Below are positions 15,662 through 35,236 of a stretch of 52,906 bases of DNA, piece by piece (the stretch's first letter is position 1; each line of letters starts with the position of its first letter). A program made the position numbers and the translations under genes. This stretch comes from Reyranella sp. Its GTDB lineage: Bacteria > Pseudomonadota > Alphaproteobacteria > Reyranellales > Reyranellaceae. The stretch covers positions 1-52,906 of the forward strand of contig JAIETA010000125.1 in the NCBI GenBank assembly GCA_019745575.1, written 5' to 3'. Under the pieces are notes generated by a model. The model was not told the origin of the DNA, did no database searches, and worked only from the letters and a program-made list of their open reading frames with translations.

Positions 15662-16216
15662 ATGAAGATGCGCCTCGTCCCTCTGCTTCTCGGCCTGCTC
15701 GTCCCCGCCGGTGCGGCGACCGCCCAGACCATGGAGTTCGGCTGCCCCACGCCCGGCACCACCTTCACTTTCGACAGCGGCCTGAAAGTCGTGGCAAAGG
15801 GCCGCGACGGCATGGACTGCACCATGGACACGGTGGGCGGCGCCCCCTTCAGGTTGCGCGCCCTGCTGATCGCCAACCCGTCGCCGGACGGCCGCGACAC
15901 CTCGGCCTATATCGCCGCGCTCCGGCCCGAGCGGCTGTGGCCGCTCGAAGTCGGCAAGAGGATCGAAGCGCGCTACAGCACCGGCGGCCGCACCTGGACC
16001 TACATCCTCACGGTGCCGCGCACCGAGAAGCGCACCGGCCCGGGCAACGCCATGATCGACACCTTCGTGGTCGAGATGAACGAACAAGGCGACAAGGGCG
16101 AGCGCTCGGTGTCGCGCTGGTGGATCTCGCCCGCCGACAAATACGCCATCCGCTTCGACGCCACCAACTCGGCCGGCACCGCCAACCGCGCCGTGGTGAC
16201 CGAGGTCACGCGCTAA
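15662..16216 (+). CDS. Small secreted protein of unknown function
   Basis: A 184-residue protein with a Sec signal peptide (MKMRLVPLLLGLLVPAGAATAQ, cut after TAQ). The mature part begins MEFGCPTPGTTFTFDSG and has two cysteines (GCP and DCT, about 30 and 61), possibly a disulfide. It is beta-rich by eye (RTWTYILTVPR, IRFDATNSAGTANRAVV). The family is not recognised. The start at 15662 places a normal signal peptide at the N-terminus; an earlier GTG at 15644 is possible. It lies 18 bp after the ATPase gene, so it may be co-transcribed with the importer. Confidence 0.7.
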   Translation: MKMRLVPLLLGLLVPAGAATAQTMEFGCPTPGTTFTFDSGLKVVAKGRDGMDCTMDTVGGAPFRLRALLIANPSPDGRDTSAYIAALRPERLWPLEVGKRIEARYSTGGRTWTYILTVPRTEKRTGPGNAMIDTFVVEMNEQGDKGERSVSRWWISPADKYAIRFDATNSAGTANRAVVTEVTR

Positions 16217-16265
16217 GGTCGCGGCCGGCCACACCGTGCCCCGGAAGGCCGTGTCACACCCGAAA

Positions 16266-16567
16266 GTGTCACACCAAGTTGAGACAAATGTTGTGACACA
16301 GGCCCGTCGCCCACCTGTGCCCTCGCGGGATTCTGACCCTGCGGCCCCGCCCCCCTGACAAGCGCGGGGGCGGCCGCAGACGACTGTCACAACCCTGTGC
16401 TCGGATGCGTTGCCCGCACCGCGGTCCACCCTCTGCCGGACAGTCGTCGGCGGGGTGTCCTTGTGCTTGCTACTCACGGTTCAGTACCCGGTGTGGGCAA
16501 GACCGCGGGACGGCCCCTCATCCTCCAGGGATCGTACCCGGCGGGCGCGCCGGGCGGGGCATGGTCA
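16266..16567 (+). repeat. Structured intergenic repeat, copy A (candidate ncRNA or mobile element)
   Basis: This 302 bp stretch holds no credible gene but shares a series of blocks, in the same order, with 33766-34018. It opens with GTGTCACA (16266-16273) and its inverse TGTGACAC (16292-16299). A stem with arms CTGCGG (16339-16344) and CCGCAG (16374-16379) follows, extended inward by a GC-rich stem. Next come a GTCC...GGAC stem, TGCTTGCTAC, GGGACGGCCCCTC, and a GC-rich hairpin CCCGGCG/CGCCGGG (16537-16554) followed by GGGGCATGGTCA. An extra GTGTCACACC lies at 16251. The remaining part of the gap (16217-16265 and 16568-16657) shows nothing I can name, apart from a short GGAGTCACTCC palindrome. 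Confidence 0.6.
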
Positions 16568-16657
16568 AAGATTTCAGAGTGGAGTCACTCCTCCCCGGTC
16601 GTCTCGATGGACGTGGCCGGGGGCGGCTCGGCCTTTCCTGGCCGGGGCAGGACAGGC

Positions 16658-17813: not shown

Positions 17814-17853
17814 GGTTGAGTGGCGGCCTGACAAGTTGCTCGACCGCTTTTTC

Positions 17854-17949
17854 GGCTTCCCGCACGCCGGGAAGCCAATGACGACGGGCTTTTCGCCCGC
17901 TCACAGGGCCCACCTGAATGGGCCAAATGCTGGGCCCTCGGTTGGGCCC
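17854..17949 (-). other. Array of four further hairpins upstream of the unknown protein gene
   Basis: Four inverted repeats stand close together: GGCTTCCCG/CGGGAAGCC (17854-17876, 9 bp arms), CGGGC/GCCCG (17885-17899), GGCCCA/TGGGCC (17907-17924) and GGGCCC/GGGCCC (17932-17949). Together with the terminator-like stem at 17792-17813 they make five hairpins in 158 bp. I see no gene in 17770-18327 on either strand; short open frames there lack family resemblance. A structured RNA read on the minus strand and ending at the 17792-17813 stem would explain the arrangement. Confidence 0.45.
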
Positions 17950-18133
17950 GGTTCCGGGATAAGCCTTGTTCAACGGGCTTTTGGGCGTCTCGCTCGTTCT
18001 TCGGTCGCCAAGGCCCCTTCGCGCCCTGTGCCCAGGGCGTCGTCAAGTGTCTGTTCCGGCGTCGTTATTCGGCACGCGGTGGGGACGGGGTCGTTGTTGG
18101 GACTGTTCCGTCGGCCGTCGGCCTCGGGATGAA

Positions 18134-18153
18134 CCGCGGGTCAGGACCCGCGG
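18134..18153. repeat. Near-perfect palindrome in gene-free stretch
   Basis: CCGCGGGTC and GACCCGCGG are separated by two bases. It lies in the 558 bp gene-free stretch, about 185 bp from the hairpin array. No T-run follows on either strand, so it is not a classical terminator. It could be a protein-binding site or a stem of a longer RNA. Confidence 0.4.
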
Positions 18154-18327
18154 CGGCTGCACCAGGCCATAAAGGCGAACCCGCGGGCGTGCCGCGGACA
18201 GGTCGTGCCGAAAAGGGAGAAGGCCGGCGCGGTCCAAGCACCAGTCTGACAGAAAACTAACTCATCTCCTGCTGATCCGGCAACTTTTTATTTGCATGGC
18301 AGCCATGCGCCTGGGCCTCGCCTTTTC

Positions 18328-32693: not shown

Positions 32694-33698
32694 ATGACCA
32701 GACCTCTGTCCCGGCGCGCCACCCTGGGCGCGGCCGCCGCCCTGCCCGCCGCCGCCCTGCTGCCTGCCGGCCTCGGCGCCCAGGCGGCCTGGAAGCCCAC
32801 GCAGGGCGTGCGCATCGTCGTGCCGGCAGCACCTGGCGGCACCACCGACATCGTCGCCCGCCTGCTGGCGGCCCACCTGCAGCAGGCCTGGGGCCAGTCC
32901 TGCGTGGTCGACAACAAGTCGGGGGCCGGCGGCGTCATCGGCTCCAACGAGGTGGTGAAATCGACGCCCGACGGCCACACCGTCCTGATGGGCAACATCG
33001 GCCCGCAGTCGATCGCCTATTCGCTCTACCGCAACATGCCCTACACGCCGGCCGCCTTCGCCCCGGTGTCGTGCGTCATCACCGCCCCCAACGTGCTGGT
33101 CGTGCATCCCTCGGTGCCGGCCACCACGGTGCCCGAGTTCGTCGCCTGGCTGAAGAAGGAGGACGGCAAGGTCTCCTACGCCTCCTCGGGCACCGGCCAG
33201 TCGCCGCACCTGTCGGCCGCCTGGTTCATGCAGCTCACCGGCACCAAGGCCACGCACGTGCCCTATCGCGGCGCGGCGCCGGCGCTGAACGACCTGGTGG
33301 CGGGCGTCACCAGCTTCTTCTTCGACAACCTCACCACCGCCATCGAGTTCGTGCGGGCGGGCAAGCTGCGCGCGCTGGGCCTCACCTCGGCGCAGCGCAA
33401 CCCGCTGGTGCCCGACCTGGTGCCGATCCGCGAGACCATGCCGGAACTGGCGCCGTTCGACGTCTCGACCTGGTTCGGCGTGTTCCTGCCCGGCGCCACG
33501 CCGCGCCCGATCGTCGATTCGCTCAACGCCCAGATGAAGGCCTGGCTCGACGACGAGAAGACCAGGGAGCGCTTCCGCGCGATGGCGGGCTTCCCCGCCT
33601 ACGGCACGCCGGAGCAGTTCAATTCGTTCGTCAATGGCCAGATCGCCCAGTGGAAGAGCGTGATCGACAAGGAGGGGCTGAAGCTCGACGTGAACTAG
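32694..33698 (+). CDS. Bug-family (tripartite tricarboxylate transporter) binding protein 1
   Basis: A 334-residue periplasmic receptor. A Tat-type signal (PLSRRATLGAAAALPAAALL) is followed by RIVVPAAPGGTTDIVARLLA (about 40-59), the Bug signature that binds carboxylates, and by VVDNKSGAGGVIGSNEV. Later segments THVPYRGAAPALNDLVAG are typical. TctA/TctB membrane partners are not in this window. The start at 32694 gives the signal peptide directly. Its 3' third is about 90% identical by eye to a gene stump at 36213-36443. Confidence 0.92.
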   Translation: MTRPLSRRATLGAAAALPAAALLPAGLGAQAAWKPTQGVRIVVPAAPGGTTDIVARLLAAHLQQAWGQSCVVDNKSGAGGVIGSNEVVKSTPDGHTVLMGNIGPQSIAYSLYRNMPYTPAAFAPVSCVITAPNVLVVHPSVPATTVPEFVAWLKKEDGKVSYASSGTGQSPHLSAAWFMQLTGTKATHVPYRGAAPALNDLVAGVTSFFFDNLTTAIEFVRAGKLRALGLTSAQRNPLVPDLVPIRETMPELAPFDVSTWFGVFLPGATPRPIVDSLNAQMKAWLDDEKTRERFRAMAGFPAYGTPEQFNSFVNGQIAQWKSVIDKEGLKLDVN

Positions 33699-33713
33699 GG
33701 CGGAGCTGAAATC

Positions 33714-33738
33714 CGGCTCTCCGCAGCTCGGAGAGCCG
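33714..33738 (+). terminator. Terminator-like hairpin after Bug gene 1
   Basis: CGGCTCTCC / GGAGAGCCG is a perfect 9 bp stem with a seven-base loop, 16 bp beyond the stop. Only a short T-run (CGTTTCGG) follows. Confidence 0.55.
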
Positions 33739-33765
33739 ACGTTTCGGGGGCATTGTCTCACTGAT

Positions 33766-34018
33766 GTGTCACACCAACTTGTGTCAAATGTTGTGACACC
33801 GAGTTGTGACATCGCGTGAATCCTGCGGTCCGAGCGCCGCAGCAGACCGTCAATGGTTCCTTCTGGGACGCGTTTTTACGCACCTCGGTCCGCCCCACTT
33901 CCGGACGGTCTCCGGCGGGGGCAGCCTTTGCTTGCTACGCACGACACGATGATCGCGGGACGACCCCTCCTCCTCTTTTGGAGCGTACCCGGCGGGTGCG
34001 CCGGGCGGGGTATGGTCA
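33766..34018 (+). repeat. Structured intergenic repeat, copy B (candidate ncRNA or mobile element)
   Basis: This is the second copy of the element at 16266-16567. It has the same GTGTCACA/TGTGACAC opening (33766-33799), and the same CTGCGG/CCGCAG stem (33823-33842) with an eight-base loop where copy A has a long stem. GTCCG/CGGAC, TGCTTGCTAC, GGGACGACCCCTC and the hairpin CCCGGCG/CGCCGGG (33988-34005) followed by GGGGTATGGTCA come next. Copy B is about 50 bp shorter, mainly in the first stem-loop. The rest of the gap to 34297 is less GC-rich and shows no gene. Confidence 0.6.
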
Positions 34019-34297
34019 TTATTTATTGGAGCTGGCGCTCGACCTTCTGGACAGGGTTCCTGCCATGGTACGGGAAACATAGCACAACACCTGCTGAATC
34101 TGTTATCACATCTTCGTGATCGGATGCTGGCAGTGCTGGCATCTCTCGTCCTGTTCCAGCTCAGCGCATTTTCGCCGCGACATTCGGTGACTTCACGAGG
34201 TCATCAAAGCTTGGCTTCTTCTTAGAGCGGAATCCGCGCACGATAGCTAACCCCGGCAGCAAGCAGCCAAGCCACACAGGGCGACGCTAAGTGCCGA

Positions 34298-35236
34298 TCA
34301 GCCGTACACGTCCCTCAGCACCCGGCGGTCGCGTGCCAGAGTTTCGAGCACCACTTGCGGCCCGTCGATCTGCAGTGGAATGCGCAGCTTGCGCGCCTCG
34401 GCGTGCATGGCCTCGTTCCCGGCAATCGACAGCAGCGCTGCCGTCGCCTTGTCGGTGAAGGCTTTATCGGCAGTTGCGGCGGACCATACCGCAAAGCTGA
34501 AAGAAAACGCTGCCTTGGGGTCGCCCACGATCTCGGCAAAGGTCGGAACATTGGGCAGTTCGGGCGCCCGCTCGGCGCCAAAGGTGGCGAGGAACCGCAA
34601 CTTATCCTTGGCAGAAGCCTTCTCGTTGTAAGTCAGGACCCAGTCAGTACCAAAGTGCGCGAGGTCGGCCCTGCCGCTCAATAACAAGGCGGCAGCGGAG
34701 GCCCAGCTATTCGACGGTTGCATCGTGAAGGAGATGCCTGTGCGCTTCTTGACCATGTCCAATAAAAGGCGCTCAGATCCCCCCTCGGGCATCGTTAATG
34801 CCGAACTCTTCGAGGCGGTGGACATACCCTGCCAGTCTTTCAGCGCCGAGTCCTCGCGAACAGCGATAGCTAGTGACATGCCACGGGTGAGCTTGGCGAC
34901 CGGCCTGAGGTCGGCCAGCAGCTTGTCGCCCTCGAATTCCCACCTAGCCAGTATATCCGGACAATTTATGAGAAGCGTGCGGCTGTCGGGCTTCGAGCGG
35001 ATAGTCTCCCGCGTCCCAAGCTTGGCACCGTCGCCTGTCACAAAATCGATGACGACCGGCATTCCCATCGCTTTGGTGAAAGGCCCTTGGATGAGTTGAA
35101 ATAATTGGCCGACCTGACCGCCTTGTCCCCAAGGCACGATCACCCTGATGCTGTCCGCGGCGAGCGCGCCGCGGTTAATCATGAAACTGCCCGCAACGGC
35201 GGCTCCCAGTTTCAATGCAGTTCTACGGCTGGTCAT
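34298..35236 (-). CDS. Bug-family binding protein 2
   Basis: A 312-residue periplasmic receptor with a Tat-type signal (TSRRTALKLGAAVAGSFMIN). IRVIVPWGQGGQVGQLFQLI (about 31-50) aligns with the Bug ligand loop, but the usual GGxxD is changed to GGQVG, so the ligand may differ. NSWASAAALLLSGRADLAHFG and LPNVPTFAEIVGDP are typical later segments. Sequence and codon use are unlike Bug 1, so it is not a recent copy. The start at 35236 follows AGAAAGAAA; an ATG at 35269 would add eleven residues. Confidence 0.85.
   Translation of the reverse strand: MTSRRTALKLGAAVAGSFMINRGALAADSIRVIVPWGQGGQVGQLFQLIQGPFTKAMGMPVVIDFVTGDGAKLGTRETIRSKPDSRTLLINCPDILARWEFEGDKLLADLRPVAKLTRGMSLAIAVREDSALKDWQGMSTASKSSALTMPEGGSERLLLDMVKKRTGISFTMQPSNSWASAAALLLSGRADLAHFGTDWVLTYNEKASAKDKLRFLATFGAERAPELPNVPTFAEIVGDPKAAFSFSFAVWSAATADKAFTDKATAALLSIAGNEAMHAEARKLRIPLQIDGPQVVLETLARDRRVLRDVYG

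Follow-up and report, generated by a model that had tools for sequence, protein, structure and literature searches.

Mosaic, folded intergenic repeats behind genes in a subset of Reyranella

The window, a 52,906 nucleotide stretch of contig JAIETA010000125.1 from a Reyranella metagenome-assembled genome (MAG) of 364 contigs, contains three intergenic copies of a single repeat family, all on the plus strand. Copy A lies between two convergent stop codons, directly behind a gene at 15662-16216, and copy B is flanked by convergent TctC-like solute receptor genes (Pfam PF03401) at 32694-33698 and 34298-35236. A third copy, overlooked in the earlier note on this DNA, is found 1.3 kb from copy A; at its 3' end it directly adjoins the stop codon of a minus-strand gene for an EamA-like transporter. 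The features are as follows (types are described below).

16217-16657, plus strand: complete intergenic region holding the copy A insertion, from one convergent stop codon to the other
about 16251-16570, plus strand: conserved type 1 core of copy A, supported by the 20 places of type 1 in the own genome and by a 79-copy alignment
16251-16299, plus strand: box module (GTGTCACAC, GTGTCACACC, inverted TTGTGACAC), common to types 1 and 2; type 3 has counterpart boxes that differ in sequence
16266-16275 and 16291-16299, plus strand: GTGTCACACC / TTGTGACAC arms of copy A, from block comparison
16301-16566, plus strand: helix that closes the type 1 fold at long range (5' strand 16301-16312, 3' strand 16552-16566)
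16339-16379, plus strand: CTGCGGCC/GGCCGCAG hairpin, enlarged in copy A (16339-16346 and 16372-16379)
16537-16554, plus strand: CCCGGCG/CGCCGGG hairpin (16537-16543 and 16548-16554), then the conserved GGGGCATGGTC
17850-18298, plus strand: third copy, type 3, with GGGCCC boxes
33706-34102, plus strand: copy B, a type 1 core inside type 2/3-like ends
33715-33737, plus strand: 5' hairpin of copy B, GGCTCTCC/GGAGAGCC
about 33751-34018, plus strand: core of copy B
34080-34102, plus strand: 3' end of copy B, TAGCACAACACCTGCTGAATCTG

All blocks that the earlier note had described as shared between A and B were found in both copies and in the same order, and beyond the arms and hairpins listed above these comprise GGTCC/GGAC, TGCTTGCTAC, GGGACG(G/A)CCCCTC and GGGG(C/T)ATGGTCA. 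The first stem is indeed longer in A, as had been claimed, the CTGCGG hairpin being lengthened by an insertion near its tip. The limits first given for the two copies (16266-16567 and 33766-34018) proved too narrow, as the core of A extends over ~16251-16570 and copy B over ~33706-34102.

BLASTN of copy A against its own genome returned 27 places at E ≤ 1e-5, given which the match between A and B is far beyond chance; 18 of the 27 were full length or nearly so at 75–100% identity, to which copy B and a B-like copy on contig C337 are added. The first 50 nt of type 1 (TGTCACACC-N14-TGTTGTGACA) also precede a different core, which we refer to as type 2, and the 3' half of type 2 led in turn to type 3, which has the same architecture but with GGGCCC boxes. 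Types 2 and 3 denote elements that share their ends with type 1 but have different cores, together ~30 copies in the own genome, where we count 20 type 1 places, at least five of type 2 and about 26 of type 3 or type 3-like sequence (~50 in total).

The earlier note had proposed a search for further copies in related genomes, and many were found across a subset of Reyranella: 227 distinct copies were gathered from genomes that bear the element, with strong matches in only about 15 of 65 Reyranella genomes. In a phylogeny of the gene that precedes copy A the carriers need three changes, compared with 10.3 in shuffles, so they are clustered, although not in one clean clade of this single gene tree. 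The type 3 core, searched as a covariance model that was only roughly calibrated, gave nothing convincing outside the own genome among 385 sampled alphaproteobacterial genomes (one match at E = 9e-4). Viral contigs, plasmids and phages yielded no family match, and a phage or plasmid origin was rejected on these grounds. Two public MAGs titled otherwise, CAMDOT01 (‘Rhizobium sp. Q54’, e.g. locus L053) and CAMDOZ01 (‘Candidatus Marinimicrobia’, locus L149), contain the Reyranella element; either these titles are probably erroneous or the bins are mixtures. We found no report of Reyranella repeats in the open-licence literature, which does not prove that none exists.

The elements, 320–480 nt in length, are composites of exchangeable modules, as is typical of mosaic intergenic repeats. 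In types 2 and 3, and in copy B, the element opens with the hairpin GGCTCTCC..GGAGAGCC and closes with TAGCA..CCTGCTGAA; in type 1 one of these shared ends, or both, is often missing. Various 3' modules follow the common GGGGCATGGYCA of type 1, one of them being the type 2/3 module. As the type 3 profile matches copy B from 33706 to 34176 despite its type 1 core, and the 3' modules of type 1 are exchangeable, the family is mosaic. The boxes take the form X-ACC-N-TGTT-X', where X is TGTCAC, GGGCCC, GGGCAC, GCGGAC, GTGGAC or others and X' follows X, such that the inverted hexamers switch in concert between subfamilies (TGTCAC, GGGCCC, GGGCAC, GYGGAC). Just upstream of five type 1 copies lies a repeated palindrome, GGACATTGCTGCGCAATGTCC, sometimes followed by GGCCGTGCTGCGCACGGCC, possibly a REP-like repeat in its own right.

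Five other genomes retain the two convergent genes that flank copy A, with 8–26 bp between the stop codons versus 441 bp here, demonstrating that copy A is an insertion, and the inserted DNA occupies most of 16217-16657. Behind the same upstream gene, four other genomes carry a type 2 or type 3 element, and at many other loci several species carry an element, which frequently belongs to a different type or box class. Among the type 1 orthologous-site pairs that we checked, the ortholog in most cases ranked low in similarity, often 30th–70th, the best match frequently being another copy within the same genome; either recurrent insertion into these sites or conversion among copies would account for this. 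Other palindromes, e.g. GTCATCCCGAGCGAAGCGAGGGATC and CTCCTCCCCTTGCCGGAGTCCGGCAAGGGGAGG, occur behind homologues of gene 15662-16216 at four loci of other Reyranella genomes, which suggests that this intergenic site is a hot spot for repeats. The earlier note had offered either an undescribed non-coding RNA family or a small mobile structured element: each alternative is partly right, mobility in evolution being supported by empty sites, dispersion, mosaicism and element types mismatched to their loci. Neither a riboswitch nor an RNA transcribed independently from a promoter of its own finds support.

The statement that no open-reading frame explains the element agrees with our comparison, in which copies differ by 1–2 nt indels throughout and two long open-reading frames of copy A have no Pfam match; a protein-coding reading was rejected, since these indels put the copies out of frame with one another. 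A short peptide read onwards from the terminal ATGG(C/T)C was likewise rejected, as the downstream readings differ between copies and often stop. No Rfam 15 covariance model matched the window at the gathering cut-off, and at E ≤ 5 a search of 20 loci returned, apart from tRNAs lying outside the elements, nothing beyond chance level; a known RNA family was rejected accordingly.

A large, structured, multi-copy, RNA-like element beside genes could conceivably serve a programmable nuclease or a retroelement as its RNA component, such as an IscB/HEARO-like omegaRNA or a group II intron remnant. We regard this as highly improbable: Rfam searches down to E ≤ 5 gave no hit in families of this kind, the HEARO model of IscB omegaRNA included, reverse transcriptase is absent from most carriers (11 genomes), and the IscB N-terminal domain PF14239 was not found in 15 genomes, in a search that was silent in the control genomes too.

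The type 3 fold was tested on 54 copies, using seven hand-named helices with shuffled and slid controls. These helices hold 86% paired cells, and 139 cells changed on both sides, compared with 57.6 ± 5.2 in shuffles, a control that ignores kinship, and at most 34 in slid controls, which favour the named helices because these were picked by inspecting this family. Two-sided change occurred in 24 pairs versus 15.3 in shuffles, and the covariation score was 0.154 versus 0.083; one of the hand-named helices holds a constant C-A mismatch. In the 79 type 1 copies the long-range helix closes a fold of ~265 nt, with pairs kept in nearly all copies, mostly via G-C/G-U changes. A further type 1 stem, GACYGTC/GACRGTC, was set aside, its compensations occurring mixed with C-A cells. 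The excess of two-sided changes over both controls supports a secondary structure of the elements, in line with the RNA fold under selection proposed in the earlier note; given these changes and the further copies in related genomes, two of the three outcomes that it had named as refuting did not occur. As to the folding strand, the G-U versus A-C bias leans plus in some helices and minus in others, with slid controls equally variable.

Placement relative to genes was determined for 175 copies with a gene on both sides, with genes called by a home-made, codon-trained caller (codon-position G+C) at loci chosen by element presence. The elements are sense-oriented and lie mainly just 3' of stop codons. 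A same-strand upstream gene was found for 155 of the 175 (52 of 65 type 1, 24 of 25 type 2 and 79 of 85 type 3 copies), at approximate median gaps after the stop codon of about 20, 0 and 45 nt, respectively. Convergent gaps hold 103 of the 175 copies and divergent gaps eight, divergent pairs being 17% of all gene pairs, and in co-directional pairs sense outnumbers antisense by 52 to 12. The absence of a recognisable riboswitch, noted earlier from the letters, agrees with the Rfam result and with copies standing behind genes and not in 5' leaders; a riboswitch or 5' leader element was rejected, given the 155 copies directly behind a same-strand gene and the 103 with a convergent gene downstream.

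The same position bears on the possibility that the copies are independent small RNAs, with the box module as promoter or operator and the core as the RNA. The conserved fold and the sharing of one box module by two different cores would fit, but each box changes along with its inverted partner, the position close 3' of a stop codon is consistent, and a consensus scan of copy A, a weak test, gave no promoter-like match; we consider such RNAs doubtful.

Placement behind genes could also stem from insertions being harmful elsewhere, as expected if the family were purely selfish and MITE-like, moved in trans by a transposase that reads the boxes and hairpins and retained at tolerated sites. The elements are non-coding and dispersed, empty sites exist, the boxes change in concert and the family is confined to one genus, all of which this reading accommodates. 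It does not lead one to expect, from tolerance alone, the sense bias of 52 to 12, nor a fold kept across the whole core and not at the ends only. Y1 transposase is missing from most carriers, the own genome included (11 genomes), and inspection by eye of the aligned ends, whose exact positions are uncertain, showed no terminal inverted repeats. No target-site duplication was established at the empty sites, where the intergenic flanks are too diverged to fix the joints, and no autonomous relative with the same ends was seen in these draft MAGs, the box-module places examined bearing a type 1 or type 2 core. Insertion-sequence genes are common and are often lost or collapsed in draft assemblies. 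On balance we judge the purely selfish reading rather unlikely, though worth keeping in view.

Evidence on transcript ends differs between types. Terminator-like hairpins occur on the minus strand in 81 of 88 type 3 elements (0.29 from shuffles), where they face the convergent gene, and on the plus strand in 28 of 36 type 2 elements (0.19 from shuffles). Type 1, the type of A and B, has no clear excess (20 of 87 on the plus and 25 of 87 on the minus strand, 0.18 from shuffles). Terminator enrichment therefore supports a 3'-end role for types 2 and 3 only; for the type 1 core, placement and fold suggest one.

Taken together, A and B are probably lineage-specific intergenic repeats, non-coding, mosaic and interspersed, which belong to a subset of Reyranella and fold in the 3' ends of mRNAs. 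Each element consists of the shared ends, as far as type 1 retains them, an inverted hexamer box pair and one of at least three structured cores. Having no coding capacity, such elements would spread via an enzyme acting in trans, recombination between copies, or both, and would be retained mainly just behind stop codons in sense orientation. Read-through transcription from the upstream gene would then make the element the folded 3' end of the mRNA, the likeliest effect being on transcript 3' ends, through termination or protection against decay. The analysis shows the family itself, its fold and placement, the insertion at copy A and the switching of types at orthologous sites; transcription, 3'-end function and mode of spread are what we infer. 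More speculatively, and with little confidence, each hexamer box could be a specificity tag for an RNA- or DNA-binding factor encoded by the lineage, so that the swapping of folded 3'-UTR cassettes with different tags and cores at fixed sites behind genes would amount to a re-taggable system on mRNA 3' ends.

It is rare among repeat families for base-paired covariation to occur jointly with alternative cores in shared ends and concerted box change. If individual copies do shape the 3' ends of mRNAs, these repeats would supply transcript ends time and again, and type switching at orthologous sites allows one to ask, as in a natural experiment, whether such repeats are selfish or have been put to use. 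Comparative screens for non-coding RNAs should also take care, as a structured repeat of this length may pass for a new RNA family.

The family is a mosaic intergenic repeat family and not a member of any sequence family tested. Its hairpin-rich, chromosomal copies behind genes resemble the REP elements of REP/RAYT (IS200/IS605-type) systems, yet each is far longer than a REP and most carriers have no Y1 transposase. With MITEs it shares short, non-coding, dispersed copies and the existence of empty sites, but its interior is folded and conserved, and terminal inverted repeats and target duplications are not established. As in intrinsic terminators, types 2 and 3 have G+C-rich hairpins followed by T runs, although here these form one module of a much longer element and are not enriched in type 1. 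BIMEs of enterobacteria, BOX of pneumococcus and RIMEs of rhizobia are non-coding, interspersed elements of dozens of copies, built of composite modules with potential RNA stem-loops and often situated behind genes. The Reyranella family is likened to these by its properties, namely non-coding, composite and many dispersed intergenic copies; we recognise no sequence relation to those families, and the Reyranella element is longer. It differs from them in the different types found at orthologous sites, in its alternative cores within shared ends and in boxes that switch in concert.
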